Assembly: GCF_009847015.1 (NCBI RefSeq)
Contig: NZ_WVEM01000006.1
Span: 62,001 to 126,000, forward strand
Direction of reading: 5' to 3'
DNA from: Sunxiuqinia indica
GTDB lineage: Bacteria > Bacteroidota > Bacteroidia > Bacteroidales > Prolixibacteraceae
DNA length: 64,000 bases
Shown here: positions 21,349 through 44,206 of the stretch, in pieces
Numbering within the stretch: position 1 is the first letter of the stretch
Layout: each line of letters opens with the position of its first letter
Position numbers and translations under genes: made by a program
The notes under the pieces: generated by a model
Told to the model about the DNA's origin: nothing
The model's input: only the letters and a program-made list of their open reading frames with translations
The model's database searches: none

Positions 21349-24121
21349 CTACCAATCGCACCATATTGGAATTGAAAGCGAATTTCCGAGCTTGAACGCC
21401 GGGTTAAATACTCTGCTACCAATCGCACCATATTGGAATTGAAAGCAATAAACCAAGAATTAATTTTTGAGCGAATTAACTACCAATCGCACCATATTGG
21501 AATTGAAAGAACAATGGTATATGAAAGTGATCTACGGGTTTGGGCTACCAATCGCACCATATTGGAATTGAAAGGTGCATTGCTTATTTTGGTGTCTACA
21601 CCCAAAATGTTCTACCAATCGCACCATATTGGAATTGAAAGTGTTATCGGATGGTTTGTTAAGCTGATTCATATTCTACCAATCGCACCATATTGGAATT
21701 GAAAGTCGGAAACGTCTTTTACAACCAGTGTGCCGTAAAGAACTACCAATCGCACCATATTGGAATTGAAAGGAGGCAAAAGAGCTAATAGCATCAACAG
21801 CGCCTTGATCTACCAATCGCACCATATTGGAATTGAAAGAAGGGGGTTTCTGATTCCAGTATTCTTTCTGGTAACTACCAATCGCACCATATTGGAATTG
21901 AAAGATGGTAAGCCGGATGCTTTAGGCTCGATAAAAATACGCTACCAATCGCACCATATTGGAATTGAAAGTGATGAAGTGTTGGAAGAAATGGCTAAAT
22001 GGTTAAGCTACCAATCGCACCATATTGGAATTGAAAGGTGCGTACATTTGATGAAATGATTCCAGCACTGGTCTACCAATCGCACCATATTGGAATTGAA
22101 AGTCGCAGGGCAAACGGGCGTAAGCTTCGACCCACAAGCTACCAATCGCACCATATTGGAATTGAAAGCGAAGTGCTTGATTATATTACCCTTCTCATGT
22201 CAGCTACCAATCGCACCATATTGGAATTGAAAGCGAGCTTGTCAATTACATTGTAATCCTTTCTTAACGCTACCAATCGCACCATATTGGAATTGAAAGA
22301 ACGTATCTCAAGAGTTGACACCTTCGGACGATGATCTACCAATCGCACCATATTGGAATTGAAAGTCAACAGCCTCTAAAATGCCTTTAGCATCGTAAAG
22401 CTACCAATCGCACCATATTGGAATTGAAAGTGATTTCTTAGTGCTGAATTACCTCCCTGTCTTGAACTACCAATCGCACCATATTGGAATTGAAAGAACA
22501 ACGTGGTTGATCCTTACGATCGCCACCGTGCTACCAATCGCACCATATTGGAATTGAAAGTCGGGATCTATATTTTTTAACAATGTCCAAAAATCTACCA
22601 ATCGCACCATATTGGAATTGAAAGGTAAATTGAAGCACCAGAACCGTAAGAGCTACCGCTACCAATCGCACCATATTGGAATTGAAAGTAATGGCAAGCT
22701 ATACGTCTATGTTAGGTATGATCTACCAATCGCACCATATTGGAATTGAAAGAGATTTCCCAGAACCGAGTGATTAACGACAATTGCTACCAATCGCACC
22801 ATATTGGAATTGAAAGATTAAGGATGAGCGGAGAAACAAAAACGGTAAACACTACCAATCGCACCATATTGGAATTGAAAGAAAGAAGAAGTGTTTGAAG
22901 CTTCATTCACGGCTAAGCTACCAATCGCACCATATTGGAATTGAAAGTCGGAAGCCTGCTGGCAGGCAATTTCTCACTACTCTCTACCAATCGCACCATA
23001 TTGGAATTGAAAGAGAATTGTCAGTGTGGACATTATATCAAAACACGCTACCAATCGCACCATATTGGAATTGAAATGACTAATTCTCCTCTGCGTACTT
23101 TAGGAATATTTACACTACCAATCGCACCATATTGGAATTGAAATAGCGGTCAATATGGGCTACAATGGAAGATATTGTACTACCAATCGCACCATATTGG
23201 AATTGAAATACGGTAAATCATGCCGGCAATACCGCAGCAAAAGACTACCAATCGCACCATATTGGAATTGAAATCAATAATGTGAATTATCTATCCCCAA
23301 CTGCTTAAACTACCAATCGCACCATATTGGAATTGAAATACAATCGGCTTGAGTATGCCAGTACGGTTGGGCGCACTACCAATCGCACCATATTGGAATT
23401 GAAATCCATAAGCGGGAACATCTGCACCTAGAAAAATACCTACCAATCGCACCATATTGGAATTGAAATTTTATTAATTTGTAATTCACTTGCTAAGTCG
23501 TTGACTACCAATCGCACCATATTGGAATTGAAATATCGTTTCCGATCCGGCTGATAAAGACAGCTATGCGCTACCAATCGCACCATATTGGAATTGAAAT
23601 GGAGGATATCATTTTCAGAAATATCAACATCACAACTACCAATCGCACCATATTGGAATTGAAATAAAATCGTTTAATGTTGGTGCTTCATCCGGATGAT
23701 GCTTCCAATCGCACCATACTGGAATTGAAATAATTCATTTCACAAGAAAGGAAAAGCGATTGATTTCTTTTAATCGCACCATACTGGAATTGAAATTTAG
23801 TACCTCCTGGTTGCTGCATAGTCGATCCCGGCTTTTAATCGCACCATACTGGAATTGAAATGATAGCGAGAACGACACACAGGCGTATATTGATTTTCTT
23901 TTAATCGCACCATACTGGAATTGAAATATGGAAGTCTGCCGCTGAGATATCTATAAACAACCTTTTAATCGCACCATACTGGAATTGAAATAACTGAAAC
24001 TAATCCATTTGTCAATGTAGTACCGCCTTTTAATCGCACCATACTGGAATTGAAATTTGCTATTATTTTATTTTCTGCTTTCTGAAATTTCCTTTTAATC
24101 GCACCATGCTGGAATTGAAAT
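21349..24121 (+). CRISPR. CRISPR array, 43 repeats of 30 bp, 42 spacers
   Basis: Repeats begin CTACCAATCG and end GAATTGAAAG, with spacers of 34-37 bp and a period of 64-67 bp. Repeats 1-26 are identical. Repeats 27-36 (from 23048) end in T instead of G. Repeat 37 (23702) starts CTTCC and has ATACTGG for ATATTGG. Repeats 38-42 start CTTTTAATCG, and repeat 43 (24092-24121) has ATGCTGG. Degeneracy therefore increases away from cas2, which sets the leader at the left. The 3' end ATTGAAAG is typical of the 8-nt handle in type I-B systems. In the main form CCAAT can pair with ATTGG to make a small stem. Confidence 0.99.
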
Positions 24122-24166
24122 ATGAGTCGGGATATTCCGATTCACGATCATAAATAATTAAACCTA
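24122..24166. other. Gap between last repeat and the sugar-transporter gene
   Basis: 45 bp separate the last repeat from the stop of the convergent transporter gene. The first 35 or so would fit a terminal spacer with no repeat after it. GAGTCGG and CCGATTC can form a short stem at about 24124-24143. Confidence 0.5.
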
Positions 24167-25165
24167 TTAACTACCAGCATAAATAATAAAGGCAATCCCT
24201 AAAGCAAACAATACAAACATAGCCGCCAATAATCCGGAAACACCCTTAACCTGTTTAAATTCTTTCCATATAAAAACGCCCCAGAGTGCAGCAACAAGGG
24301 TTGCACCCTGACCCAGCCCGTAAGAGATAGCAGCTCCGGCCTTTCCTGCGGCAATCAGGTTCAATGAATTGCCAATACCCCATATTATACCTCCCAGGAT
24401 TCCCACCAAATGAATGGAGAATTTTCCTTTGAAGTATTCTTTGTATTTTACCGGCTCCCCATTTATCGGCTTTTTCATTAAAATGGTATTGAAAACAAAA
24501 TTACTGGCAAACACACCAATTGAAAAAACTACAACCGCCGTATAAGGTGTCATCTTTCCGGCAGCCGGCGATACAAAATTGTCCAGATCCATAGAGGCAG
24601 CTACAAAGCGGTAAAAGAACGACATCAGTACCCCGGCAAGAACAGCAACTAATATCCCTTTTGTAGTTACTTTTTGCTTGCTCGAAGAAGCTTTTTTATA
24701 TGCCAGGGCATTTAGGATGATAGCAACAGTTACCAATCCCACTCCGAGAAAGAGAAACACGGGGTCTCCTTTTTGCGAACCAATGTAGTTGATAATAACG
24801 CCAAGGACAAGGGCAAGCCCAACACCAACAGGAAAAGCTACCGACATCCCGGCAATGGCAATGGCTGTTGAAAGAAGGATGTTAGAGGCATTAAATATTA
24901 TCCCTCCCAGGAATGCACTGCCAATATTGCTCCAATCAGCTTGTTTAATATCGACAAGGAAACTGCGTCCTCCTTCGCCAGTACTTCCTAAAGTAAAGGC
25001 AAAAATCAGGGCTAACAACAGGACTCCGATTACGTAATCCCAATAAAACAATTCATAGCGCCAAGTTTTCCCGGCAAGTTTCTGGGTATTCCCCCACGAG
25101 CCCCAGCACAACATGGTAATGAAGCATAAAATAATGGCTAATGGATAGCTGTTGACTATAAACAT
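24167..25165 (-). CDS. Sugar transporter of the GRP/RhaT drug-metabolite superfamily
   Basis: 332-residue inner-membrane protein with about ten hydrophobic helices. The CWGSWGNTQKLAGKTWRYELFYWDY segment near the N terminus is characteristic of the glucose/ribose porter branch of the DMT superfamily, which includes GlcU and RbsU. It is probably a proton-coupled monosaccharide importer. It is the last gene of the long leftward operon, 19 bp after the ribokinase gene. This pairing suggests ribose or a related pentose as the cargo; direct substrate evidence is absent. Confidence 0.85.
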   Translation of the reverse strand: MFIVNSYPLAIILCFITMLCWGSWGNTQKLAGKTWRYELFYWDYVIGVLLLALIFAFTLGSTGEGGRSFLVDIKQADWSNIGSAFLGGIIFNASNILLSTAIAIAGMSVAFPVGVGLALVLGVIINYIGSQKGDPVFLFLGVGLVTVAIILNALAYKKASSSKQKVTTKGILVAVLAGVLMSFFYRFVAASMDLDNFVSPAAGKMTPYTAVVVFSIGVFASNFVFNTILMKKPINGEPVKYKEYFKGKFSIHLVGILGGIIWGIGNSLNLIAAGKAGAAISYGLGQGATLVAALWGVFIWKEFKQVKGVSGLLAAMFVLFALGIAFIIYAGS

Positions 25166-25184
25166 GGATGTTAATTTTTTAGAT

Positions 25185-26108
25185 TTATACTGATATATTT
25201 TCTTTAATAAATTCAGTAATTTCCTTTTCGGAAGGTATTGCAGGCTGTGCCCCCATCTTGGTTACACACAATGCGGCGGCGGCTGTTGCAAACCTCAAAG
25301 CATCCTCCCAACTTTTATTATTGCTGATACCAGCTGCAAGTGCCCCGCAAAACGTATCGCCTGCGGCCGTTGTATCAACCGACTCAACTTCAAAGGCGGG
25401 GATATGAAAATATTTTTCCTCATTTTTAAACAAGCAGCCTTTAACCCCCATTGTAAGCACAACATTTTTTACGCCCAGGGAGTTAAGCTTTTCCGCAACG
25501 GCTTCTTCTCCGATGTCAGCTATTTTTGCAGAAGCCACAACTTCAGCTTCTGTTTCGTTTACCACGAGAACGTGAACTGCCTCTAATACAGATTTATCCA
25601 GTTTAGTTGCCGGTGCCACATTTAACATGACTTTTGACCCTTTTTTGTGGGCAATCTTGCATATTGTTTGGACTGTATTATAAGGTATTTCCATTTGCAG
25701 CATGATTAAATCGGACTTTTCAATTTCATCTTCCAAGGCTACAATATAGTCTGAAGTGAGCATGTCATTTGCCCCGGGAATTATTACAATGCTGTTTTCG
25801 CCTTTGCTATCAACCCAGATCATAGCCGTTCCTGTAGGAACATTATCAACCAACAATGAAGAAGACATATTAATCCCTTGGTCATTAAATGTTTTCAGGA
25901 TACTCTTTCCGTAAATATCATTTCCAAGGCTGGTTACAAATTTCACATTGCTGCCTGTTTTATTTGCTGCAACTGCCTGATTTGCACCTTTCCCTCCCAT
26001 TGCCTGCAAAAAAGTCTGCCCCTTTATGGTTTCGCCATCCTTGGGGAAACGTTCCATCTTTGCAATTAAATCTAAATTCGAACTTCCTATTACAAGTATT
26101 TTACCCAT
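25185..26108 (-). CDS. rbsK: Ribokinase (PfkB family)
   Basis: 307-residue sugar kinase. The N-terminal PfkB signature AMGGKGANQAVAA, the ribokinase-type opening ILVIGSSNLDLI and the C-terminal DTTAAGDTFCGALAAG with the catalytic Asp are intact. GTAMIWVDSKGENSIVIIPGAN is strongly ribokinase-like. It would phosphorylate D-ribose after import and hydrolysis. Related 2-deoxyribose or other pentose kinases cannot be excluded. It lies between the transporter and GH97 genes. Confidence 0.88.
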   Translation of the reverse strand: MGKILVIGSSNLDLIAKMERFPKDGETIKGQTFLQAMGGKGANQAVAANKTGSNVKFVTSLGNDIYGKSILKTFNDQGINMSSSLLVDNVPTGTAMIWVDSKGENSIVIIPGANDMLTSDYIVALEDEIEKSDLIMLQMEIPYNTVQTICKIAHKKGSKVMLNVAPATKLDKSVLEAVHVLVVNETEAEVVASAKIADIGEEAVAEKLNSLGVKNVVLTMGVKGCLFKNEEKYFHIPAFEVESVDTTAAGDTFCGALAAGISNNKSWEDALRFATAAAALCVTKMGAQPAIPSEKEITEFIKENISV

Positions 26109-26135
26109 AAAAAATATATTAAGTAGCCTATATCT

Positions 26136-28079
26136 TTATTTAATTATTGCAGTATAACCACCGCCTTTTGACATTTCTATTTTAAGTTTCTGACCTGCCT
26201 GGATTTTTTCAGAAATTATACGGAAATCTTTTGCCTGCTTGAAAGAATTTACCCCATCGGCATGGGCTCTTAATTGCTTTTCCCCTCCTTCTAAAAATGA
26301 TAAATCAATTTGTAGTTCACGTGGCTCAGCTCCATTCATAGCTCCAATGTACCAGGTATCTCCAGCCCTTCTTGCAACAACTATATATTTACCAATTTCC
26401 CCGGCCAAGGGAATTGTTTCATCCCAAACAGTTGGAATTTCTTTTATAAAATTAAAACTCACCGGATTTTCATCGTATTTTGTTGGGCTGTCTGAAACCA
26501 TTTGTAAGGGGCTTTCATATACCACATACATGGCGACCTGATGGCTGCGCGTACCATGGCTCATAGGTTCAGTCCGGCTAAGAAAATAATTATCATCGTG
26601 GGCATTTAACATTGCCCCAGGTGTATAATCCATAGGGCCTGCCCACATTCTTAGATATGGAATAATCAGGTCGTGTGTAACAGTCGCTATATCTTTCATC
26701 CTATTATATTCCAGGCCAACAACTCCTTCTCGTGTCATTACATTCGGATATTTTCGCCTAAGTCCTTTGCAGATATACGAGCCATGAAAATCAAGCAATA
26801 ATTTATGCCTGGCAGCATTATCTGCTACATCATAAAAAAAGTTTACCATCCTGGCATCGTTGCGATCCATAAAATCAATTTTAACACCCTTCACTCCCCA
26901 TTTGGAAAACTGGTCGAATGCAACATCCATCTGCCTGTCAACATTGATCCATTTTGCCCAAAGCATAACCCCCACTTTTTTAGCAGCGGCATGTTTACAA
27001 ATTGATGCTATATCCACATCCGGGTTTAACTCCATTAAATCATTTTTTGCAGACCATCCTTCATCGAGTAATACATATTCCAATCCGTGTTTAGCAGCAT
27101 AATCTATCATATACAAATAGGTAGCAGTATTTATACCCGAAACAAAATCGACATTGTATATATTCCGTCCGTTCCACCAGTCCCATAATACTTTTCCGGG
27201 TTTTACCCACGAAAAATCATACTCCGGGGCTTCTTCATCTGAAAGAAGGTAGGTTAAATCGCTACTCAGCATATCGGCATCATTTTCGAATATACCTACT
27301 ACCCGCCACGGGAAAGTTCTTTTTGTATTTGTTTTAACAAGATATTCTTCCCGCTCAATAGCATATAATTTATTCCCGTTATTCCTGATTTCTTCGGTAT
27401 GCGGATAATAAGCAAAAATACCTTTAAACGATTTTCCGGATGGTTGCAGGTAAAAGCCCGGATAATTTACCAGATTAGCCTCGGCAATCAGTAATTTACA
27501 GTTTCCTGCATTAACCATTACCGGAGAAATTGAAAAGCTATCTTGAGGCAAGGATGAAATATTTTTAATTGTATATTCCTCTTCAAACCAATTTTGTAAT
27601 TTATCAGTTAACAATGTATATGTTTCGTAATCATCCGGAAGATTGAAAACTACTGATTCGGAAATTATTGGTTTTTCTTCGTCTTTTTTACCAATAAACC
27701 GGTAAGCAACACCATCGTTATATGCCCTGAATTCGACCATATAATCACGGTAAGCCAATAAAATCTTATTGTATTCTTCATTGATTACTTTTAATTTTCG
27801 GGGAACAGTTAAATTTACTTCCTTTTGAATACTTTCTGTTGAAACCTTCCTTGGACGGGAATCCTTCCCCCACTCCTTCTCTCCGACTTTCATTAAAATG
27901 GGAGATTTTGTAACTACTACTTTCCCGTTTCTTTTTACTTCGTAACTGATTTCATTATGGGTTGTTATACTGATTGTATTTTTACCATCCGGGGAACTAA
28001 CACATTTCTCCTGCGAAAAAGCAGAACCTGCTATGATAAAAACAAAGATGGCAATTAAATATAAATACTTTCTTTTCAT
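26136..28079 (-). CDS. Glycoside hydrolase family 97
   Basis: 647-residue periplasmic enzyme with a signal peptide ending GSAFSQ. The GH97 N-terminal beta-sandwich (residues about 25-290) is followed by a TIM-barrel with DWWNGRNIYNVDF, YVLLDEGW, GVKIDFMDRND and LLDFHGSY, then TREGVVGLEYN. The motif KIDFMDR resembles the retaining GH97b branch (alpha-galactosidase type), where an Asp acts as nucleophile, rather than SusB. The C-terminal beta domain ends in GGGYTAIIK. The alpha-glycosidic specificity is therefore plausible, but the actual sugar is not known. Confidence 0.9.
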   Translation of the reverse strand: MKRKYLYLIAIFVFIIAGSAFSQEKCVSSPDGKNTISITTHNEISYEVKRNGKVVVTKSPILMKVGEKEWGKDSRPRKVSTESIQKEVNLTVPRKLKVINEEYNKILLAYRDYMVEFRAYNDGVAYRFIGKKDEEKPIISESVVFNLPDDYETYTLLTDKLQNWFEEEYTIKNISSLPQDSFSISPVMVNAGNCKLLIAEANLVNYPGFYLQPSGKSFKGIFAYYPHTEEIRNNGNKLYAIEREEYLVKTNTKRTFPWRVVGIFENDADMLSSDLTYLLSDEEAPEYDFSWVKPGKVLWDWWNGRNIYNVDFVSGINTATYLYMIDYAAKHGLEYVLLDEGWSAKNDLMELNPDVDIASICKHAAAKKVGVMLWAKWINVDRQMDVAFDQFSKWGVKGVKIDFMDRNDARMVNFFYDVADNAARHKLLLDFHGSYICKGLRRKYPNVMTREGVVGLEYNRMKDIATVTHDLIIPYLRMWAGPMDYTPGAMLNAHDDNYFLSRTEPMSHGTRSHQVAMYVVYESPLQMVSDSPTKYDENPVSFNFIKEIPTVWDETIPLAGEIGKYIVVARRAGDTWYIGAMNGAEPRELQIDLSFLEGGEKQLRAHADGVNSFKQAKDFRIISEKIQAGQKLKIEMSKGGGYTAIIK

Positions 28080-28115
28080 ACAATTATATTCTTATTCGTT
28101 AATAATATTTCAAAA

Positions 28116-28961
28116 CTATTCGGCATTTATTTCAGCGTTTTTTTCAAGGTAGCCAAGCACTTGCAAAAAATCATCGGTTTCACGAACTGTGCTTTTGTAA
28201 TTCTCTGGATTATTATAATTGAAAAAACCGTGTCCTTCCCCATTATATAATTTCAGCACACAGGTACTCCCCACTTTTCCCATTACCTTTTGGTAATATC
28301 TTGCTGTTTCAACAGGAATCAACTGGTCTTCTGTGCCAAGGAAAATAATGGTAGGAGGTGCTCCCTGTTTTATATTATGCAGGGGCGAAAAATCTTTATA
28401 ATCATCAGCTACTCGTTCATATCCGTAGCCCCCTGGACCGTTATCGATAACCGGACTATAAAGCACAAGGGCATCCGGCTCACAATCAACCGATAAGTCG
28501 TCGTTTTTATCATTATATTTTTTAATTAAGGCCGTGGCAGCTGCTAGCTGTCCTCCGGCCGAACCTCCCGATGCAATTATTTTTGAAGGATTGAGGCTGA
28601 ATTCAGAAGCATTTTTTCGGATATAGCGAATTGCCGACTTGGCATCTTTCAGTGCCTCGAAAGGAGTTGTACTATTTTTGCTTTCGGTTCTGTAATCGGC
28701 AAGAAAACAAACGATGCCACGTTTTGCGAAATATTCAGCATGATTTTTAAAATGGCTTCTGTCACCGGTTTTCCATCCTCCCCCAAAAAAGAATACCATA
28801 GCCGGATATTGATTTGCCTTGTTGAAATTATCGGGATATTTAACTTCTAAATACAATTTAACCGTATCTACTTTTTTATAAATAAAAAGCTCCGATTTCT
28901 GGCTGAATCCCAACAAAGCAGGTAAACAAAATAAAATGGTTATAAAATTAAATCTCAACAT
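28116..28961 (-). CDS. Alpha/beta hydrolase, acetyl-esterase-like
   Basis: 281-residue secreted hydrolase with an N-terminal signal (LPALLGFSQ). The oxyanion FFFGGGWKTGDR, the nucleophile elbow GGSAGGQLAA, the Asp in FLGTEDQLIPVETA and the His in YNGEGHGFFNY make a complete triad of the BD-FAE/carbohydrate-esterase type. In this operon it probably removes acyl groups from the glycan substrate. The exact ester is not predictable. Confidence 0.85.
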   Translation of the reverse strand: MLRFNFITILFCLPALLGFSQKSELFIYKKVDTVKLYLEVKYPDNFNKANQYPAMVFFFGGGWKTGDRSHFKNHAEYFAKRGIVCFLADYRTESKNSTTPFEALKDAKSAIRYIRKNASEFSLNPSKIIASGGSAGGQLAAATALIKKYNDKNDDLSVDCEPDALVLYSPVIDNGPGGYGYERVADDYKDFSPLHNIKQGAPPTIIFLGTEDQLIPVETARYYQKVMGKVGSTCVLKLYNGEGHGFFNYNNPENYKSTVRETDDFLQVLGYLEKNAEINAE

Positions 28962-28967
28962 AACAAA

Positions 28968-30590
28968 CTATTTATTTTGAGGAGTTAACAGGTAAGTGTC
29001 AAAATCCGAATCATTTACCCAATCAGCTGGGATTTTTTCACCATTCATATAGCGGTTATAAAAATTATGGACAGCACCTGCATAAGGGTAATTATCAAAC
29101 ACATCGCCATTGCCCAGGATACGAGGATCACCCTGTTCTGTGAGCCTTTGCTTCATTTCGATTTCAAGTCCTGATTTCAGTTCCTGAAATTCTTCATTTT
29201 CAGCCAAGTTATCCATACAAAAAGGATCGTTGGTAATATTATAAAGTTCTTCGGAAGGGCGTTTCCCAAAATTCATTTCCCAAAATTCCAGTTGGCCTTT
29301 TTTCCTCCGTGTGTCCAGAATATATGTTTTAGTCGGGCTGCCGTCGCAGTTCAGATAACCTGTTTCAGGATTACCTGCCGGCCACCTACCGGTTTTAAAA
29401 TTACGCAGGTACAAATAATCGCCCTTTATTATTCCACGAACCGGATAACCCTGGTCATCGGGCCGGCCAACATCATGCCGTTCTTTTCCAACTAAAACAA
29501 AATCGCGCTTAGTAGAAACCGAGCCTTCTTTCTCTGAATAAAATAGTTCACTCAGGCTTTTACCTGTTATAGGCTGCATCCCCGATTGTTCTTCTTTAAC
29601 TCCTGCCAATTCCAGGATGGTTGGTGCAAAATCGATAAAATTCACAAAATCATCAACCCGCCTGCCTGGATTTTTTATCCCTTTAGGCCACATAACAGCC
29701 AGGGGAAGGTGGTTGGAATATTCATAAACCTGGCCTTTAATTCGAGGGAAAGGCATACCATTGTCGGCTGTTACAAAAACAATTGTATTTTCCAATTCCC
29801 CGATTTCATCAAGTTTTTCAAGCATTCTTTTTAAATGGCTGTCGAAGTATTCAATCTCGAATGCATAATCGAGCATATCGGATCGTATTGTATCTACATC
29901 GGGCCAGAATTCAGGAATTTTATCCACGCCTGACTTTGACATTCCGCCTAATTCTTCACCCGATTCAAAATCGTAAGGACGGTGTGGTTCAAACCCTCCA
30001 TACCAAAAGCAAAAGGGTTCTCCTTCGGGACGTTCTTTAAGAAACTGAGAAAAATTCTGGGCGTAATCGTTGGGAGAAATCCCATTTGTAGGAGCTTCTA
30101 ATTTATGAGTATTGAATTTCTTTCCGGCCAACTCACGCCTTTTTCCGTCAACCTTACCAGGATTGCCTGGAGCCCATCCTTTTCCTGTACTTCCAACCCA
30201 ATATCCCTGCGCTCCCAATGCTTCAACATAGGTTTTAAATTTTGCCGGGAAATTTGGTGAATGGTTGGCTGCTTCCTCTAATTGCCAACTATTACGCCCG
30301 GTTAAAATACAAGCCCGTGAAGGGGCACATTTAGCATTTGGAGTATAAGCACGCGTAAATAAAATACCACTGTTTGCTACGCGGTCGAATCCGGGAGTTT
30401 CAACCCAATTGCAGCCATAAGCTCCAAAATGCTGCCACGAGGCATCGTCCGCAATACAGAACAAAAAATTTGGTTTCTTTTCTTTTTGTAATGAGCCTTC
30501 ATTTTTTTTACTACAAGCTAAAGTCGCACTAATTAAGGCAATGCCCAGTAAAATTAATTTCAGGTTTTGGTATGTATTATTGCGCTTCAT
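28968..30590 (-). CDS. Lipoprotein sulfatase (S1 family)
   Basis: 540-residue formylglycine-dependent sulfatase. The activation motif [12 protein letters not shown] supplies the Cys for formylglycine conversion, and the metal site [18 protein letters not shown] and TADNGMPF are present. A lipoprotein signal ([11 protein letters not shown]) indicates membrane anchoring. The ATG at 30590 gives a proper signal peptide; upstream starts (ATG 30602, TTG 30614) only add residues. No sulfatase-maturase gene is in the window. Presence of this enzyme implies a sulfated substrate for the locus. Confidence 0.93.
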
Positions 30591-30615
30591 TATTATGATC
30601 ATTATGTTTTTCAAT

Positions 30616-31839
30616 TCATTTATTTTTCTGAAAAGCCTTCGCTTTTGGAAACCTTTTTTCTGATAGATTTAGATAAAAATCAGGTAACGCTTTATTCATC
30701 CATATTTCATACTGTTCAGGATCTTCCCTTTCATAAATATGCGCATCTCCGCTTTTATCAAATTCATACGAAAAAATACCTGACTCTTTTACCTCGATAG
30801 TACAAGGGCGAAGCTTTTCCATAAAAATTTCATCGCTGTTTAATACTTCATTTTCAGGCACTATTTCAAAAACCTCGTTTTCATGTTTAACCAACTTAAG
30901 TTCCGCAACTTGCATCCAAATTGCAGTTTCCCATGTCCTGTGGGGCTTATTAAAAACGGAAGGATCAGACTGGAAGGTACTGTCGAGCATAGCCAGATAG
31001 CCTGGCTTTGTCTCCCGCAATAAAGCATAATGATAGTATTGCTTTAATTTATCGGGCAGGTTGTTAATAAAATTCAAACTTGAGATTCTGTAAAATGTAT
31101 TGTTCCCATCTTTTATAAATGCCTTAAACTTTGCCTTGCCTGCTCTTGTTTCATCGCCAGCGGCACAAGGGTACAAGTATAATGGCAACCCGGATTTTAG
31201 AACTGAAACAAATGCGTTTGTATCTAAAGCAACATTCCATTCTAAAAATGTAGGATGGTTAAAACTTGTCCCGGCGGAAATATGAACTTCTTTGACTTTT
31301 TCTTTTAGTAAATCAGGAAACCTGTTATTAGCCACAGCAAGAATCCGCAGTGAGCCAAATGAAACAACAGTTACTGCTTCCTCTGATTCTTCTAATATTC
31401 TTTTCAATAAATTGAGCCCCTTGTTCTCGTATGCGGAAATATATTCCATTTTATCATCCGTACTTTTCATAGCAGAAAAAGGGCCAACGCCATAAGGCAC
31501 ATTCTTATCGAAAATATAATTGAGTTGTTCAACTGCTGAATAGCCCGGCTCTCTTGGACCACGTTTATCCTGATGTAAACCTACTCCGGCATTTACAGCC
31601 ACTTTATTCCGAAATGTATTGTGGCAATCGAGCAATACTGCTTTTAGATCGATCTCGGGTAATAGATAAGCATTTACAAGGTCGATATTATCGCCGACAT
31701 CCTGAGCAGGAACATATAAGTCGGAAATTACAATTACCGGGGTTGAATTCTTCTTTACAAACGTTTGTGCAATAGTTGTTTGTAAAAAACAGATAGTAAT
31801 TATTATAGATATCAGGCCAACCTTCGGTAAAGTTTTCAT
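30616..31839 (-). CDS. Secreted nucleoside-hydrolase-fold protein, diverged
   Basis: 407-residue protein with a signal peptide ending TTIAQ. It shows the nucleoside-hydrolase fold in outline: [23 protein letters not shown] where the family has DTDxGxDDxxAL, [13 protein letters not shown] for the ALGPLTN block, and [18 protein letters not shown] for the later NxxxDPxA block. The Asp cluster is rearranged by an insertion, so calcium binding and catalysis may differ. The C-terminal 80 residues extend beyond the usual family length. It lies next to a canonical family member, consistent with an accessory ribosyl-hydrolase or binding role. Confidence 0.65.
31757..31768. promoter_or_regulatory. Possible internal LacI-type operator
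   Basis: ACAAACGTTTGT is a perfect 12-bp palindrome inside the start of the gene above. It differs by one base from the ACAATCGTTTGT repeated at 41918 and 42104. A role as auxiliary operator is inferred from similarity only. Confidence 0.35.
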
Positions 31840-31848
31840 AAAAGGTTT

Positions 31849-36147: not shown

Positions 36148-36222
36148 AATTTTGTTTACAGCTAAATTTATATCTAAAATCACAACAAGGAGGGATATAA
36201 TCCTTCCTTGTTCTTTACCCCT

Positions 36223-37668
36223 CTAATATCCAGGATTATTCTCATTCATAGCATCGTTCGCATCCATGGCTACCTGAGGGATTGGATATACAGTTGCCTG
36301 ATTTTCACCAACGGTTATCCCGTAGCCAGCATATGCCGCTTGTACCTGTTCGTTAAGTTTCCCAAAGCGGATCAAGTCGAAACGTCGGTGGCGCTCGCAG
36401 CAAAGTTCAAGCAAACGTTCTTTTAGTAACACATCGGCAAATTCTGATTTTGAAAGGCCATCATTTTCGGTAATGCTACTAATGCCTGCCCGTGTTCGAA
36501 CCTGGTTCAGGTACTCATACTTTTTACCCGATGAATCATCAATATTATTTAAAGCCTCTGAAGCCATCAACAATACATCGGCATAGCGCATGTAAACATA
36601 ATTCAAGTCATCGTCTTCAATCTGATCCTGATAATTCTCGTCATAATATTTTTTTATTGCAGGAGGTGATTGTACAACCCCGTTAAATTCTGTCCAAAAA
36701 AATTCTGTTTTACGCTTATCGTCATCTTCGTACTGACCATAAAGGTATTGAGTTGGGCCAAACCCTCCCCAACCAAAACCACCGGCAGTAGGGCCACCAG
36801 TACCCCGGGCTCCCCAATAAGAACTTTGCAAACTTCCTTCAAGCCCCCAATAGCCGGAATGACTCCACTGAACTTCAAAGATATTTTCGTATTCTTCGTT
36901 TTTATGGCTTGCTGAATATATATCAGCATAATTATCGTACAGGTTAAAATGCCCTATGACATTATTTAAAGCTTCCAGGGCTTCGGCTGACTTACCCCAT
37001 TGCAAATAAACACGCCCAAGGAAAGCATAAGCGGCATAACTTGTTGCCCTCCCTTTATCATTGCTATTCGACCATGTTTCAGGAAGAATGCCTGCGGCAT
37101 ACTCTAAATCGCCGGTTATTAACTCATAAGCATCATCGATTGATTCGCAGCGAGGTTTTGAAATCTCATCCGGATCAACGGTGGATGTTGTCCATAACGG
37201 AATACGGCCATACATTCGTACCAATTCAAAATAAAATAATCCCCTCAGAAAACGGGCTTGTGCAATCAGCATAGTCCTGTCTTCATCGCTCATGTTTGAA
37301 TTGGAAGGCATATCAATAACTGTATTAGCAGACTTAACTCCTTCGTAACTATACACATAATGATTATACAAGAATGAATGGCTTGCCGTATAAGTATAAT
37401 ACATCAGTTCTGTATAGGCTGCCCAGCTTGTATTAAAAGGGCGAACTTCATCGGTACCAAATTCCCCCAATACTATTGTCAATTTCTGGCCTGTTACTTT
37501 TTGGAGCATTGCATAAGAACAAATCAGAGCTGCATCCCAGTCTTCGGCAGTAATAAAAGAATTTTCTGCGGTGATGCTGCTTTTTGAAACCTCTGTCAGA
37601 AAATCTTCACAAGAAGTACTCGAAAACAGAAGAATCACAATTGTTAAGACATATATTATTTTTTTCAT
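36223..37668 (-). CDS. susD: SusD/RagB-family outer-membrane lipoprotein
   Basis: 481-residue surface lipoprotein that forms the lid on the SusC transporter. The signal LLFSSTSCEDFLTE gives the lipid-modified Cys. TPR-like helices and the C-terminal RagB/SusD signature, including RHRRFDLIRFGK, YPIPQVAMDANDAMNENNPGY, are present. It is encoded directly downstream of susC, the obligate arrangement. Its cargo is expected to be the operon's oligosaccharide or nucleoside-like substrate. Confidence 0.95.
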   Translation of the reverse strand: MKKIIYVLTIVILLFSSTSCEDFLTEVSKSSITAENSFITAEDWDAALICSYAMLQKVTGQKLTIVLGEFGTDEVRPFNTSWAAYTELMYYTYTASHSFLYNHYVYSYEGVKSANTVIDMPSNSNMSDEDRTMLIAQARFLRGLFYFELVRMYGRIPLWTTSTVDPDEISKPRCESIDDAYELITGDLEYAAGILPETWSNSNDKGRATSYAAYAFLGRVYLQWGKSAEALEALNNVIGHFNLYDNYADIYSASHKNEEYENIFEVQWSHSGYWGLEGSLQSSYWGARGTGGPTAGGFGWGGFGPTQYLYGQYEDDDKRKTEFFWTEFNGVVQSPPAIKKYYDENYQDQIEDDDLNYVYMRYADVLLMASEALNNIDDSSGKKYEYLNQVRTRAGISSITENDGLSKSEFADVLLKERLLELCCERHRRFDLIRFGKLNEQVQAAYAGYGITVGENQATVYPIPQVAMDANDAMNENNPGY

Positions 37669-37691
37669 GATAATTAATTGTAAAAGTATTC

Positions 37692-40625
37692 TTAGAAATT
37701 AATTGAAATACCACCGATAAAAGCCCTTGACCCTGGATAAGGATTTGATTGGGCTGAAGCTTCTATATCATAGCCTGTGTACTTGGTAAAAGTATAGACA
37801 TTCTGAACAGAAAAATAAGCTCGTAGGCTGGTTGCTTTTAACAATTTTGTCCAGCGTTTTGGTAGCGTATAACCCAATTCCAGATTTTTAATACGGGCAT
37901 AAGTACCATCTTCCAGAATGGCATCAGTACCATCGCCATTTAAATAAGAACTACCAATACGTGGAGCCGGATATTTATTACTTGGACGGTCGGCACGCCA
38001 ATAGTTATTATAATAATCCACACTTGAATTTCCTTTGGTATTGTAACTGTTTGTAAAACGAAGCAACGAATTCCTAACCTTATATCCTCCTGCATAAGTT
38101 ACAAAAACGACCAAATCAAAATCTTTATATTTAAATGTATTGGTTAATCCGCCATAGTAAGACGGATTACTTTGCCCGCAAAAGACTCTATCATCACTAT
38201 TTATCTGATTATCTTCGTAATTGTCAACAATTTTCCTGTCACCTGGCAACGCTCCATAAACAGCAGCTTCCGCCGCTTCTTCCAATTGCCAAATTCCATC
38301 TGATTCCAGCATATAAAACTCATTTAACGAGTGCCCTACAAATATTTGCTTATTGTAATCAGTTTTACCATCATAGAGTTCAATAACTTCGTTACGGTTA
38401 TATGTAAAGTTTAATGTACTTGTCCACTGGAAATTATATTTATTTATATTGATTGTATTTAAAGAAAACTCAATCCCCTTGTTTTCAAGCACTCCAACAT
38501 TGGTGTAAGACGATTGATATCCCGATTCCAACGGCAAGGTAACGTTCCAAAGAAGGTCGGTTGATTGCTTATAATAATAATCGATACTACCGGCTACTCT
38601 ATTTCCAAAAAATCCATAATCTAAAGCTATATCCAATTGTTTAGATTTTTCCCAGGTTAAATTTGTATTTCCGATAGAAGAATATGCAGCACCGGTATAT
38701 AAAACACCATTCAAAACATAATTAAAATGCTGCCCTCCCTCAGATACAAGTGCCTGATAAAGGTAATTACCAATATTCTGGTTACCGAGCATTCCGGCGC
38801 TGACTCTTAACTTTAAATTATCAATATAATCAGCCGATTTCATAAAATCTTCTTCCGTAATCCTCCATGCTAAAGCAAGTGAAGGGAAATATCCCCAACG
38901 ATGCCCAGGTGCAAATCTAGATGAACCATCGGCACGCATTGTAAATGTAGCCAGGTAACGATCCTTATAATTATAATTAGCACGCATATAAGTTGAAGTG
39001 AGTGTCGATGCTGAAGCAGAAGAACTATTTGGACCGAACTCGCTTCCTCCTCCCAGATTATAATATTTTGTGACCGAATCAACTCCTTTGGCTTGTGCAA
39101 ATGAAGATTCTGCTTCTGATTTGGAAGCGGATACACCGACCATGGCTTTTATCTTATGGTCGCCAAATTTATTATCATAAGTTATGGTATTTTCCGATTG
39201 CCAATATCTGGATTTGCTACTTGTTATATTTGCAACTCCTTCGGTAGCATAATGCTGCCCCATCCGGGGATTTTCATATATATCAGTTATTGCAAAATGC
39301 AGTGTTGCTGCATTATTGGTTTTAATACTTAAATGTTTTACAGGTGTAAATTCGACAAAAAACGAACCGGTAATATGAGTTACTTTTGTTGATTTATCGA
39401 GCAAATCAACCATAGCCACCGGGTTTGCCTTTGTATTTAAGAAACCATCAAAATACTCTCCATCTGATCCATAAATTGGTGCAGTCGGCTGTGCAGAAAC
39501 AGCACTAAATATGGTACCGTATAACTCGTGGGTTTCTTCATTTATATTTTTGATTTTCGACTCCAAAACATTCAAACGAAATCCCATATGAGCCCAATCG
39601 TTAAGCTTGCTGTCGTTGTTAAAACGGAGTGTTATCCTATTATAATTTGAATTTTTTATAATCCCGTCCATATCGTAATAGTCAAGGCCGAGATAATTAC
39701 TGGACTTTTCGCTACCCCCAGAAACTGAGGCATTATAATTTTGGAATTTACCTTGTTCCGAAATAGCTGCCTGCCAATCGGTGGTTTCTCCACGGCTAAG
39801 CTGGAGCAATTCATCACGTTTCCACGTATATTCAATTCCTTCTGAATTAATCAGGTCATAATATTGTTGGGCGCTCATCATGTCCATTTTATTTACCATA
39901 TTCATAACACCGCCTTGCGCAGTAAACGAAACCTTGGTTTTTCCTGCCACACCTTTTTTACTGGTAATAAGTATTACACCATTTGATCCCCTATTACCAT
40001 AAATAGATGCTGCCGAAGCATCTTTCAAAATTTCAATTGATTCAATGTCAGCTGTTGCAATTTGATCAAATCCGCCGGGCACGCCATCAATAATAACTAA
40101 AGGACCATTCCCTGCATTTACCGAACCTTTCCCCCGGATAACCACTGAAACACTCCCTCCCGGTTTTAAGTTGGTTTGTGTTACCTGTACACCCGAAGCC
40201 ATGCCTTGTAACGCATTCCCCAACAAACCAACTTTTGTATTTTTAAGGTCGTTAACTTTTACTGAAGAGACTGATCCAGTTAGGTCGCTTCTTTTCGAAG
40301 TACCATAGCCAACCACAACAACATCGTCGAGGTTATAATTATCAGATATCATATTAACATTGATTTCCTTTTGCCCCTTATATACAACCTTTTGTGTAAT
40401 CATACCAACAAAAGAAAATACCAGAACATCATTTTGATTTACATCTAATGAATAGCGGCCATCTGCATCAGTTGTCACACCCGTAAGCGTACCGTCAATA
40501 ACTACTGTAACTCCGACCAAAGGCTCTGATTCATAATTCGTTACAACACCAGAAACCGTATTTTGGGCAAATCCTTCAAAAACGATCCCTAAAAACAATA
40601 CGATTAAGAAAATATATTTTTTCAT
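37692..40625 (-). CDS. susC: SusC/RagA-family TonB-dependent transporter
   Basis: 977-residue outer-membrane protein. In order: signal peptide ending GFAQ, a carboxypeptidase-like beta domain (about 22-95; SGVVTNYESEPLVGVTVVIDG), a plug domain with SKRSDLTGSVSSVK and the conserved VIRGKGSVNAGNGPLVIIDG, then a 22-strand barrel ending in FIGGISINF. It has a complete plug and barrel. It is paired with the SusD gene 24 bp downstream. Confidence 0.96.
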   Translation of the reverse strand: MKKYIFLIVLFLGIVFEGFAQNTVSGVVTNYESEPLVGVTVVIDGTLTGVTTDADGRYSLDVNQNDVLVFSFVGMITQKVVYKGQKEINVNMISDNYNLDDVVVVGYGTSKRSDLTGSVSSVKVNDLKNTKVGLLGNALQGMASGVQVTQTNLKPGGSVSVVIRGKGSVNAGNGPLVIIDGVPGGFDQIATADIESIEILKDASAASIYGNRGSNGVILITSKKGVAGKTKVSFTAQGGVMNMVNKMDMMSAQQYYDLINSEGIEYTWKRDELLQLSRGETTDWQAAISEQGKFQNYNASVSGGSEKSSNYLGLDYYDMDGIIKNSNYNRITLRFNNDSKLNDWAHMGFRLNVLESKIKNINEETHELYGTIFSAVSAQPTAPIYGSDGEYFDGFLNTKANPVAMVDLLDKSTKVTHITGSFFVEFTPVKHLSIKTNNAATLHFAITDIYENPRMGQHYATEGVANITSSKSRYWQSENTITYDNKFGDHKIKAMVGVSASKSEAESSFAQAKGVDSVTKYYNLGGGSEFGPNSSSASASTLTSTYMRANYNYKDRYLATFTMRADGSSRFAPGHRWGYFPSLALAWRITEEDFMKSADYIDNLKLRVSAGMLGNQNIGNYLYQALVSEGGQHFNYVLNGVLYTGAAYSSIGNTNLTWEKSKQLDIALDYGFFGNRVAGSIDYYYKQSTDLLWNVTLPLESGYQSSYTNVGVLENKGIEFSLNTININKYNFQWTSTLNFTYNRNEVIELYDGKTDYNKQIFVGHSLNEFYMLESDGIWQLEEAAEAAVYGALPGDRKIVDNYEDNQINSDDRVFCGQSNPSYYGGLTNTFKYKDFDLVVFVTYAGGYKVRNSLLRFTNSYNTKGNSSVDYYNNYWRADRPSNKYPAPRIGSSYLNGDGTDAILEDGTYARIKNLELGYTLPKRWTKLLKATSLRAYFSVQNVYTFTKYTGYDIEASAQSNPYPGSRAFIGGISINF

Positions 40626-40650
40626 AGTTTTTTTTCAGATTAATATTTTA

Positions 40651-41811
40651 TTAGAATTGACGAATTGGCCTTGCTGCAATTGACCAATTAGTTGCATTAG
40701 CCCTGCCTGTAACAAGATTTGTTATTTCGTAGAAATTAACATAGTAATAAGCCCATGCCCATACTGTCGTTGAGTTCACCGTTGATGTCCAGTAATTATT
40801 TTTTGAGACCAAAGCTATAGGATCAACCAGAGTAGCCCGATAGTTAAATAATTCGACCATTTCCTGAAGAGAACCTAGGAACCAATCTTCATATACATAT
40901 CCATCAACATCAAATGAATAATTATCACACAATTCAGCAACAGACGTTTCTGCCGCATTGCCATCACTGCGATAAGATATTATTCCTTGCACCAAGTTCT
41001 CGGTATTGGTTTTTCCTGCATAAATATCTTGGGTAGTACCAGAAGCATACGGATCAATTTTTACACTTACTCCAAAAGGAAGTTTCTCTGCTACATTTTC
41101 TGTTGCTACAATTAAACCATGTGCTCCATCATCGGATGTATAAAACACTGTCCCTCCTCCCAGTTGGTCGCCTACATCAACAGGCACAGCAGTACTGCCA
41201 GCTACACAAATTCTTTTTCCACGGATAAAAGAGAGATTATTCACTCCATAACATCCGGCAGGGACAGTTACCGAAAGACCATCGGATGTTAAGGTGGTAT
41301 TTACCGTAAATGACAATCCGTCGGGATAATGGTCTGCTTTAAATACAAGCTGGTCTCCACTTTCAAATCCATCACCGGATATAGCAATTGTTTCGCCTCC
41401 CAAAACCGAAGCAGGAACAGAAAGATTATCGACACTAAAAACGAAAGCTACTTTTAAGTGCTCGTCAAGGATTGTTGTTAAATTAGCCCTTGTGACAGAA
41501 ACTTCGTACTCCCCCCCCGCTTCATCTGGGATTTCAATTGTTATCCCATAGTCGTCGGCTGAAACAACTGATGCTATAAAATTAGCTTCGCCTTCAAGAG
41601 ATGTACAACTAATCACATCTTCCTCAGAAAAACCGACACCACTGACATAAACTTCTGCCCCGGGGACTGTACTACTCTGAGAAGGCATACTAACATCCTT
41701 CAGAATGGGGGCAACAACATCACCAGTTACAATAGTGACTTCATCCTCTTTTTCACAACCAATAAAAAAAGGAAGCACCAATAAAATCAATAAAAATTTA
41801 TTCATTCTCAT
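40651..41811 (-). CDS. IPT/TIG-domain lipoprotein, likely surface glycan-binding
   Basis: About 386 residues with a lipoprotein signal (VLPFFIGCEKEDE). Two IPT/TIG-type Ig-like repeats (residues about 30-125 and 125-215) carry the patterns VYVSGVGFSEEDVI and IAISGDGFESGDQL in outline. A C-terminal DUF1566-like region follows (about 215-386; GGGTVFYTSDDGAHGLIVATEN, NNYWTSTV). Such lipoproteins are common surface binding components of Sus-like systems. It is the first gene of the leftward operon, just after the LacI-controlled region. Starts at 41811 or 41805 are both possible. Confidence 0.8.
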   Translation of the reverse strand: MRMNKFLLILLVLPFFIGCEKEDEVTIVTGDVVAPILKDVSMPSQSSTVPGAEVYVSGVGFSEEDVISCTSLEGEANFIASVVSADDYGITIEIPDEAGGEYEVSVTRANLTTILDEHLKVAFVFSVDNLSVPASVLGGETIAISGDGFESGDQLVFKADHYPDGLSFTVNTTLTSDGLSVTVPAGCYGVNNLSFIRGKRICVAGSTAVPVDVGDQLGGGTVFYTSDDGAHGLIVATENVAEKLPFGVSVKIDPYASGTTQDIYAGKTNTENLVQGIISYRSDGNAAETSVAELCDNYSFDVDGYVYEDWFLGSLQEMVELFNYRATLVDPIALVSKNNYWTSTVNSTTVWAWAYYYVNFYEITNLVTGRANATNWSIAARPIRQF

Positions 41812-41890
41812 AAAATTTAGGTTTGATGTTTGAATCATCTAGTTGAAAAAAACTCGGTAATAAACTCAAGCAAATATTTTTTTCACGATT

Positions 41891-41898
41891 CAAAACTA
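41891..41898 (-). promoter_or_regulatory. Candidate -7 element of the sugar operon promoter
   Basis: On the minus strand this is TAGTTTTG, a perfect match to the Bacteroidota -7 consensus TAnnTTTG. It is about 80 bp upstream of the first gene. The LacI-like site 41918-41929 lies about 20 bp further upstream, over the -33 region. Confidence 0.4.
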
Positions 41899-41917
41899 TA
41901 GAAGAATATCATATTGC

Positions 41918-41929
41918 ACAATCGTTTGT
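41918..41929. promoter_or_regulatory. LacI-family operator, operon side
   Basis: ACAATCGTTTGT, an imperfect palindrome with central CG as in LacI-family operators. It is identical to the 12 bases at 42104-42115 in front of the divergent lacI-type gene. Confidence 0.65.
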
Positions 41930-42094
41930 TCTATGCTTTATAACACAAGCAACTAAACATTTCGATAACAACTTAAAACTAAACATATTTCATTCATCTC
42001 ATTTTCAATAATATAAATCACAAATAGCAAATAAATTAATTTCATGTTACTTAAAACCATAATAAAGTAATCTATATATAATTACATTATTATT

Positions 42095-42102
42095 TATATT
42101 TG
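42095..42102 (+). promoter_or_regulatory. Candidate -7 element of the LacI-type gene
   Basis: TATATTTG matches the TAnnTTTG consensus perfectly. It lies about 28 bp before the ATG, directly followed by the operator at 42104, an arrangement expected for autorepression. Confidence 0.5.
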
Positions 42103-42103
42103 T

Positions 42104-42115
42104 ACAATCGTTTGT
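42104..42115. promoter_or_regulatory. LacI-family operator, regulator side
   Basis: Second exact copy of ACAATCGTTTGT, 186 bp from the first, between the -7 element and the regulator ATG at 42130. Confidence 0.65.
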
Positions 42116-42129
42116 ATAAGCATTAAATT

Positions 42130-43155
42130 ATGACACATAATAGAATTAAGATTAACGATATTGCCCAACTAACTGGGTTATCAACTACTACTGTCTCCAG
42201 AGTATTGAATGGGAAAGCAAAGCAATATCGCATAGGAAAAGAATCTCAAGAAAAAATAAAAAAGATAGCCAAAGAACTTAATTATATCCCGAACCAAAAT
42301 GCAGCAAATCTTAGAACAGGAAGAAGTAACACTATTGCATTAATCGTTCCTTCCTTAAATAATCCCTTTTTTGCAAATATCGCCAGCAATATTAACAATG
42401 AAGTACGAGACAAAGGATACGTTACCATAGTGGGAGACAGTGACGAGGATGTAGCAACAGAGAAGTTGATTCTCCAACAACTTTCATCTAGAAATATAGA
42501 AGGAATTATAATAGTCCCCTGTGGAAACAAATGGGCACATATAAAAGAATTGCATGATCAAGGTTTGCCCATTGTTTGTATTGACCGATATTTTGACAAT
42601 CTTGACATTCCATTTGTCTCAACAGATAACCACCATGGAGCCTACTTGGCTACTAGACATCTGATAGAACAGGGACATACTATCATAGCATGCATCCAAG
42701 GTGTAAAAGAGTCAACCCCAAATAAGTTGAGGATAAAGGGATATCTTGATGCACTGTCAGAATCAGGCATTAAAGACATCTTAATTACAGGAGATGAGTT
42801 TAGTTTTCACTGTGGTTATATAGAAACAAAGCTTCTATTACAACAAAAAAACAAACCAACAGCGATTTTTACTTTAAGCAATACTATCGCAATGGGAGCA
42901 ATGAAGGCATTAAAAGAAGAAAGAATAAAAATACCAGATGACATTTCGTTAATTACTTTTGACGACCATCCTTACCTCGACTACCTTGCGACTCCATTAT
43001 CTTGCGTCGCCCAACCCGTAACAGACATTAGCAAAATTGCTACTAAATTCTTATTCTCTGAAATTAATAGGAACAAGATGCCTTTACCAAAAATCCTTTT
43101 AAAACCCAACTTAAATATAAAGGAATCTGTAAAACGTCTAAATTCAAGATATTAA
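42130..43155 (+). CDS. LacI-family transcriptional regulator
   Basis: 341-residue repressor. The N-terminal helix-turn-helix reads KINDIAQLTGLSTTTVSRVLNGK, followed by the hinge LNYIPNQNAANLRTGRSN and a periplasmic-binding-protein-like effector domain (about 60-335). It is divergent from the twelve-gene operon with two identical operator-like sites between. The effector is probably a sugar released by the pathway. Control by LacI instead of a hybrid two-component system or SusR type is less common for SusC/D loci but has precedent. Confidence 0.92.
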   Translation: MTHNRIKINDIAQLTGLSTTTVSRVLNGKAKQYRIGKESQEKIKKIAKELNYIPNQNAANLRTGRSNTIALIVPSLNNPFFANIASNINNEVRDKGYVTIVGDSDEDVATEKLILQQLSSRNIEGIIIVPCGNKWAHIKELHDQGLPIVCIDRYFDNLDIPFVSTDNHHGAYLATRHLIEQGHTIIACIQGVKESTPNKLRIKGYLDALSESGIKDILITGDEFSFHCGYIETKLLLQQKNKPTAIFTLSNTIAMGAMKALKEERIKIPDDISLITFDDHPYLDYLATPLSCVAQPVTDISKIATKFLFSEINRNKMPLPKILLKPNLNIKESVKRLNSRY

Positions 43156-43394
43156 TACAAATCACAGTTCCAAATCCATAATCCAAGGAAGATATAATTG
43201 GCATACATAAAATTCAACATATAAGAACAGTTTCCTTTTTCGTCTTCCTCTTTCGCTTTTTTAGGATTTTTTTAGTATTCTTTCAGATTGTTACATTACA
43301 ATCTGTATTATTTACTTTAATTTCTACTTCCCTTTTGAATGTCATAAAAAATACGCTTATTAAAAGCATTATCTTCTATATTTCCTTTTAATGG

Positions 43395-43855
43395 CTATTC
43401 TGGTTCGTTTTGTGCCACCGATTTCGGGGTGGTTTGTGCCAGTGATTTCGGTTCAAACTGTGCCACGGGGTAGCTAAAAACCGGATATCTTTCGGTTCGT
43501 TTTGTGTCAGGCAGTGCCGGGCCGATTACCCTAACGGTTCCTTTTATGCCACTTTGGGAGATCAGGTAAAAACAGCTATATCGCAGATTTTTTTCTGGAT
43601 ATGGCAAATAGACTTGATCCGATGGATTAAAAACAGATTTTATCCTTGAACAACGACGGGGTAAGCAACCGGCAGATTGGCGGTCTTTTGAGTATCTCGC
43701 GCAATACAGTCAACACTTACATCAAACTGGCAAAAGCCAGCGATTACAGTATCGGGGAATTGCTGGCAATGACTCCTGGCCAACTTGATGAACTCTTTAC
43801 CGCACACACTACACTTATCACCAACTGGTACGATGAGCTGATGGCTTGGTTCGAT
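43395..43855 (+). mobile_element. IS21-family insertion sequence, left-end fragment
   Basis: 43400-43510 holds several imperfect copies of GTGCCAnnGATTTCGG-type sequence (for example TGTGCCACCGATTTCGG and TGTGCCAGTGATTTCGG), the multiple end repeats of IS21 elements of Bacteroidota. The start of istA follows, and homology stops near 43850. The right part, including the rest of istA and istB, is missing. Confidence 0.7.
43631..43850 (+). pseudogene. IS21 transposase IstA, N-terminal remnant
   Basis: Reads KQILSLNNDGVSNRQIGGLL then SISRNTVNTYIKLAKASDYSIGELL, the N-terminal helix-turn-helix of IstA, to YDELMAWF. A stop codon (TAA at 43628) separates it from an ATG at 43622, and the frame runs into unrelated sequence after 43850. 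The DDE catalytic domain is absent. It cannot encode an active transposase. Confidence 0.75.
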
Positions 43856-43882
43856 AATACCAGGACTCGAACCTGGGACCCC
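43850..43882 (-). other. tRNA T-arm-like fragment or orphan CRISPR spacer
   Basis: On the minus strand the sequence contains GTCCCAGGTTCGAGTCCTGG, a complete T-stem and loop of a tRNA, but the rest of the tRNA is missing. It lies exactly between the IstA remnant and an isolated CRISPR repeat, and its length of about 33-35 bp is that of a spacer. Confidence 0.5.
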
Positions 43883-43912
43883 CTTCCAATCGCACCATAC
43901 TGGAATTTAAAT
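43883..43912 (+). repeat. Orphan CRISPR repeat 1
   Basis: 29 of 30 bases identical to array repeat 37 (starts CTTCCAATCG, carries ATACTGG, one G to T change at position 26). Same orientation as the array, about 19.8 kb beyond its end. Confidence 0.9.
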
Positions 43913-43919
43913 TTGAAAC

Positions 43920-44074
43920 TTCATAACAAGGAGATAATCGACTTCTTTGACAATCGAAGTAGAAATTCATACCCAAAATCTTTCAATGCTAAACAAAAAG
44001 CTTTTAGAGCCGCGTTTAAAGGGGTGAGCAATGTAAAATATTTCCTATTCAGGATTGTTAAAATCTATGATTAA
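43920..44074 (+). pseudogene. ISAon1/ISL3-like transposase, C-terminal remnant
   Basis: Translates to EIIDFFDNRSRNSYPKSFN then AKQKAFRAAFKGVSNVKYF and a short tail to the stop at 44074. This is the terminal part of DDE transposases of the ISL3/ISAon1 type. In relatives the block usually reads NRSTNAAAESFNAK; here the catalytic Glu position is Lys (YPKSF), so it is dead as well as truncated. Confidence 0.65.
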
Positions 44075-44114
44075 AAGTTGCTCTACAGAAAATGCCACCG
44101 GACCTTGTAAAGCC

Positions 44115-44158
44115 CTGATAATCAGCAAAACGGGAATTCCCGTTTTGCTGATTATCAG
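44115..44158. repeat. 44-bp perfect palindrome
   Basis: 22-bp arms with no loop: the left begins CTGATAATCAGCAAAACG and the right ends CGTTTTGCTGATTATCAG, with GGGAATTCCC at the centre. It lies between the two orphan CRISPR repeats, 40 bp after the transposase remnant. Two abutted terminal inverted repeats of an IS, or a strong bidirectional hairpin, are possible readings. Confidence 0.9.
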
Positions 44159-44176
44159 ACTGTTAGCTTTAGCATG

Positions 44177-44206
44177 GTGTCAATCGCACCATACTGGAAT
44201 TACAAG
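44177..44206 (+). repeat. Orphan CRISPR repeat 2 (degenerate)
   Basis: The central 21 bases CAATCGCACCATACTGGAATT are shared exactly with the late array repeats in outline (44181-44201). The outer bases have drifted (ends ACAAG). Same orientation as the array. Confidence 0.8.

Follow-up and report, generated by a model that had tools for sequence, protein, structure and literature searches.

A type I-B CRISPR array in the 64,000-nucleotide stretch of Sunxiuqinia indica DNA analysed here (the window) was very likely interrupted by an insertion of about 19.7 kb, which split the spacer between repeat 43 and the first of two orphan repeats and stranded the tail of the array. The sequences that flank the inserted segment show that orphan 1 originally followed repeat 43, with one ordinary 36-nt spacer between them. 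The original prediction had proposed that the old end of the array was opened by an insertion of about 19.7 kb with an operon as its cargo, and the rebuilt spacer supports this proposal. The CRISPR-Cas features of the window are:

13242-20860, forward strand: type I-B cas genes cas6, cas5, cas3, cas8b, cas7, cas4 and cas1, recognised by profiles
20851-21123, forward strand: cas2-like frame of 90 amino acids, recognised by eye
21349-24121, forward strand: CRISPR array, repeats 1-43, found by repeat scan
43883-43912, forward strand: orphan 1, formerly repeat 44 of the array, assigned by repeat scan and split spacer
44177-44206, forward strand: orphan 2, probably the last repeat of the original array in decayed form, assigned by repeat scan and terminal-decay comparison

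The presence of cas3, cas5, cas6, cas7, cas8b, cas4 and cas1 identifies the locus as a type I-B CRISPR-Cas system. A repeat scan of the window recovered an array of 43 repeats and 42 intact spacers of 34-37 nt. Beyond this array, the only matches in the window within 9 mismatches of 30 are the two orphans, both on the forward strand, and no minus-strand match was found at the same threshold. The displaced repeats therefore retain the strand of the array that ends at 24121, as had been predicted, and also its sequence. Over its 30 positions, orphan 1 has a single mismatch to repeat 37, in agreement with the 29/30 identity noted originally, and 3-4 mismatches to each of the other 42 repeats. Orphan 2 has 6-7 mismatches in 30 to the array repeats, and its previously noted 21-base core is exact when compared with orphan 1. 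A 20-nt repeat core, searched with up to 2 mismatches in the organism's own genome (5.25 Mb, 39 contigs), gave 46 matches, all forward, comprising the 43 array repeats, the two window orphans and one site on contig C11. The reversed-pattern control gave 0 matches in the same genome, and therefore the array and orphan repeats exceed chance.

The site on contig C11 is a third orphan repeat (L009, 5026-5055). It has a truncated M16-peptidase-like frame on one side and an unrelated minus-strand frame on the other, and it deviates from the array repeats in its last bases, as decayed terminal repeats do. Outside the window, an 18-base match to a loose repeat pattern on contig C36 (202957-202974, minus strand) may be due to chance. 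Single pattern matches at L102, L112 and L116 do not agree with the 30-nt repeat and were discarded as chance hits.

The segment between repeat 43 and orphan 1 is bounded by two pieces of a single spacer:

24122-24131, forward strand: left half of split spacer 43, 10 nt; the next 3 nt, ATA, recur at the start of the right half
24132-43856, no strand assigned: inserted segment of about 19,725 bp, with an uncertainty of up to 3 nt at each end
43857-43882, forward strand: right half of split spacer 43, 26 nt, matching a tRNA-Pro 3' end

When joined, the two halves (10 + 26 nt) yield a spacer of 36 nt, within the 34-37 nt of the other 42. The tRNA-Pro match was noticed before the split-spacer test was framed, as the right half alone had picked up tRNA-Pro 3' ends on contigs C7 and C8. 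Repeat 43 is followed by ATGAGTCGGG, then ATA, and the stretch GTCGGGATA after repeat 43 is identical to the tRNA-Pro loci, as the tRNA-Pro sequence predicts. The rebuilt spacer holds 32 nt of the tRNA-Pro 3' end with 1 mismatch, continuous across the junction, and matches contig C7 at 33 and contig C8 at 32 of its 36 positions. Because the halves form one 36-nt spacer of normal length with an unbroken tRNA-Pro match, we conclude that this spacer was split by the segment of about 19.7 kb. A chance estimate indicates that 8 of the 63,960 window positions tested would extend the match by at least 9 nt; the 9-mer that completes the tRNA-Pro match occurs twice in the window, once after repeat 43. 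Among the 43 spacers, only the split one carries a motif resembling a tRNA T-loop. The 32-nt block, at one base from the spacer, is common to nine tRNA-Pro-type sequences from 7 sources (C7, C8, L234, L235, L236, L237 and L242), although L234, L235, L236, L237 and L242 were found by searching with part of this block and are thus not independent.

A locus from the same repeat family (L155) served as a positive control. Its array is cut by an IS21 element with istA and istB frames, and the spacer halves of 26 and 10 nt again give 36 nt, flanked by a 6-nt duplication. The unsplit form of spacer 43 was not found: a 24-nt portion searched with up to 1 mismatch matches 7 of 140 family genomes, all with the T variant, and the three loci checked are tRNA-Pro-type sequences rather than arrays. 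A 19-nt portion matched 0 viral contigs. Likewise, no relative with an uninterrupted array or an empty site was detected among the 140 family genomes (one genome per species) or the viral contigs.

The position of the junction also bears on two other routes, named in the original prediction, by which repeats might have reached 43.9-44.2 kb, namely recombination between repeats and off-site spacer integration by Cas1-Cas2. Arrays do rearrange, but recombination would set the junction in a repeat, whereas the junction observed here lies inside a spacer. Off-site spacer integration copies its target, not a full array repeat; it would also leave the spacer unsplit, and both direction and spacer length are kept here. 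With the junction inside a split spacer these alternatives fit worse than the insertion, and we consider them highly improbable.

The inserted segment contains the twelve-gene operon, the LacI regulator and the IS21 fragment that had been placed between the array and the orphans at the outset:

24167-41838, reverse strand: twelve-gene sugar-utilisation operon (ORFs, Pfam)
42130-43155, forward strand: LacI-family regulator (Pfam)
43392-43857, forward strand: IS21 fragment consisting of the left end and the start of istA, broken off within istA, 90% identical to an intact copy in another genome (G074)

The operon encodes a permease, a PfkB kinase, a GH97 protein, an esterase-like hydrolase, a sulfatase, two nucleoside-hydrolase-like proteins, two DUF4832 proteins, SusD, a SusC-like receptor and a TIG-domain protein. 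No recombinase was recognised by Pfam among the 12 operon proteins and the LacI regulator (frames of at least 100 amino acids). The insert also lacks the marks of a transposon, since its ends, when inverted, are alike at only 8 of 20 positions and at most ATA (3 nt) is duplicated. IS21 was considered as the carrier and rejected. Homology to intact IS21 copies runs from 43392 to about 43852-43857, where the spacer starts, so that the left end of IS21 is internal to the insert, its right end is missing, and neither end of the insert is an IS21 end. The borders of the insert are not marked by base composition.

At the DNA level, at least 6 other genomes of the genus contain partial matches to the insert; among the matches listed, the longest reach about 0.9-1.4 kb (65-72%). 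For one of the two DUF4832 proteins, a search of 392 other genomes of the order found nothing at E<=1e-60, and weaker relatives of this protein occur on 4 plasmids at 22-30% identity. Matches in plasmid and phage collections were weak or absent. No second copy of the insert's IS21 was found in its own genome, and 10 of the 140 family genomes (its own included) contain matches to it at E<=1e-6, the best other reaching 88%. Because the DNA matches listed are only partial, the DUF4832 protein has no strong match and the IS21 has no second copy, the sequence comparisons suggest that the insert is likely foreign. It probably carried the IS21 piece already on arrival, and our best guess is that it came by fragment capture through end joining.

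The tRNA-Pro content of the spacer raises another route of entry, in which a spacer that copies an element's attachment site would have acted as a false att site for the insert. One phage contig (L234, 1-1574) carries tRNA-Pro 3'-end sequence, a putative attachment site, beside an integrase and with no whole tRNA, and this integrase is 91% identical to one on the organism's own contig C8 (L054, 2718-5724) that lies close to a tRNA-Pro fragment. If true, an element's own attachment site, once taken up as a spacer, would have become a landing pad for integration into immune memory. However, no integrase was recognised in the insert and its junctions have only ATA in common, and this route is judged to be very unlikely.

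Two features lie to the right of the insert, between the orphan repeats:

43922-44074, forward strand: C-terminal fragment of an ISAon1-type transposase
44115-44158, no strand assigned: perfect, loopless 44-nt palindrome, close to the left side of orphan 2

The transposase part begins within 10 bases of the end of orphan 1. Orphan 2 carries 3 changes in its last 5 nt, and this region was compared in related arrays. From 84 loci, 60 had a usable array, and in 26 of these the contig continues for over 300 nt beyond the array end. At least 2 changes in the last 5 nt were found in 7 of the 26 terminal repeats, compared with 2 of 1,410 internal repeats. As decay of the 3' end is commoner in terminal than in internal repeats, orphan 2 probably represents the repeat with which the array once ended, now decayed. 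In the other 19 of the 26 arrays the last repeat shows no such decay; the intact state of repeat 43 is thus by itself no sign of a cut.

The entire locus appears to reside on a genomic island whose borders are:

7538-7555, no strand assigned: left border, an exact 18-nt copy of the tRNA-Arg 3' end (putative attL)
7742-8950, forward strand: island tyrosine integrase, 402 amino acids (Pfam Phage_integrase, PHROG integrase)
45289-45306, no strand assigned: right border (putative attR), at the tRNA-Arg 3' end
45290-45362, reverse strand: tRNA-Arg (CCT)

In an Rfam search of positions 40000-46000, only this tRNA scored above its family cut-off. The borders are formed by an 18-nt exact repeat, an integrase lies at one end, and the flanks outside are syntenic with the closest relative (G006). 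This synteny covers window positions 1-7109, continues as short matches to 7589 and resumes from 45287. Between the syntenic flanks the relative carries about 20 kb of unrelated DNA, and at its left border there is only a decayed version of the 18-nt sequence. The border repeats and the integrase place the CRISPR-Cas locus, the inserted operon and the array tail on what is, judged from these features, one tRNA-Arg island of 37,769 bp. At the same tRNA-Arg site of the relative (L079, about 2390-12840) there are repeats, each about 120-150 nt long, with further copies on many contigs of the genome that contains the window; our guess is that these are integron-like cassette sites.

Array tails or relics of this repeat family are found near tRNA 3' ends in other genomes as well. 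An array tail lies within about 160 nt of the 3' end of tRNA-Arg CCT in G022 (L138), and relics lie about 210 nt from tRNA-Arg TCT in G011 (L145) and, in the opposite direction, about 180 nt from tRNA-Arg CCT beside sdh genes in G019 (L143). Among the 80 loci of the Cas1 scan, a tRNA lies within about 150 nt of the array end in L186 and L206, and at about 1.5 kb in L226. Two genomes of the same genus hold further relics. G003 (L081, about 1899-2074) has a single repeat next to short pieces of a cas2 tail in collinear order, and G002 (L082, 1978-2073) has two repeats separated by a 36-nt spacer, with no matching array.

A separate origin for the orphans, as remains of an older array in the tRNA-Arg island to which the present array and the operon were added later, was favoured for a time. 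This reading would account for the relics and the array tail near tRNA-Arg genes in G011, G019 and G022, and loss and gain of such loci is evident from the relics in G002 and G003. Moreover, the repeat types are out of order: orphan 1 starts with CTTCC, as repeat 37 does, and repeats 38-43 start with CTTTT. This disorder also counts against the insertion. The half-spacers flanking the insert, however, fit each other in both sequence and length, and the older array was dropped as an explanation once these halves were joined. We now regard it as very unlikely.

The same repeat family also occurs on phage DNA. Two related phage contigs with RecT-like and DnaA-like genes each carry one full-length 30-nt repeat between two listed ORFs (IMGVR_UViG_3300028167_000102, L231, 7779-7798, minus strand; IMGVR_UViG_3300028272_000002, L232, 4988-5007). 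These repeats are candidate RNA anti-CRISPRs against this type I-B system.

The window orphans could in principle be solitary repeat units of mobile elements that act, or once acted, as RNA anti-CRISPRs (Racrs). Such units are reported to inhibit CRISPR-Cas in other systems (PMC10651486), two phage contigs each carry one repeat of this family, and the orphans sit among mobile-element relics. Nevertheless, a Racr repeat would be expected on a phage or plasmid and apart from other repeats. Orphan 1 is tied to the array by the split spacer and is part of that interrupted array, and the 3' end of orphan 2 is altered. An origin of the orphans as Racrs is therefore extremely improbable.

Taken together, the evidence favours insertion into spacer 43, and we propose the following course of events. 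The type I-B locus on the tRNA-Arg island would once have had an array of at least 45 repeats with its old end toward the tRNA-Arg gene. DNA of about 19.7 kb, bearing the sugar operon, the LacI gene and the start of IS21, then entered the spacer after repeat 43, as the rebuilt spacer shows, dividing it into 10 and 26 nt and moving the last repeats 20 kb away. As a guess, a linear fragment may have been captured at a break, with microhomology over a few bases. An ISAon1-like element, since decayed, would also have entered between the last two repeats; its relic is observed, and its time of entry is left to inference. With the leader side and its 42 intact spacers untouched, immunity and the uptake of new spacers should persist, and the tail would be a fossil.

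These findings demonstrate that stranded CRISPR repeats can be linked to their array by rebuilding a split spacer, without recourse to a sister strain. They give the order of events within the island, with the array first and the operon later, and reveal that a tRNA-Arg island in a Sunxiuqinia genome carries a CRISPR-Cas locus. Furthermore, repeats taken as orphans or as anti-CRISPR RNAs can be displaced array tails.

Literature searches on orphan repeats, interrupted arrays, CRISPR islands and att-site spacers returned few or no direct papers, and we do not claim that such cases are absent from print. Solitary repeat units, including RNA anti-CRISPRs, resemble the orphans in being single CRISPR-like repeats off an array. 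Racrs are reported to ride phages and plasmids apart from other repeats (PMC10651486), whereas the window orphans are displaced members of a nearby array. The control locus L155 (Bacteroidales bacterium 6E) shares the repeat family, a split 36-nt spacer and the involvement of IS21. It differs in having an intact 2.7-kb IS21 and a 6-nt duplication, whereas the present insert has just the start of an IS21 at one of its edges and a duplication of no more than 3 nt. The compared loci span up to 10 kb beside Cas1, a range in which a 19.7-kb gap could not show. In Haloquadratum walsbyi HBSQ001, the MITE HqIRS37 is reported within a spacer of a residual CRISPR locus (PMC3119063), which likewise places a mobile piece of DNA inside a spacer between two repeats. 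HqIRS37 is a small element with its own ends, whereas the insert described here comprises about 19.7 kb of sugar genes, has no recognised ends and lies beside a complete cas operon. Insertion into a CRISPR spacer is thus already known in kind, and it is the content of this insert that is unusual.
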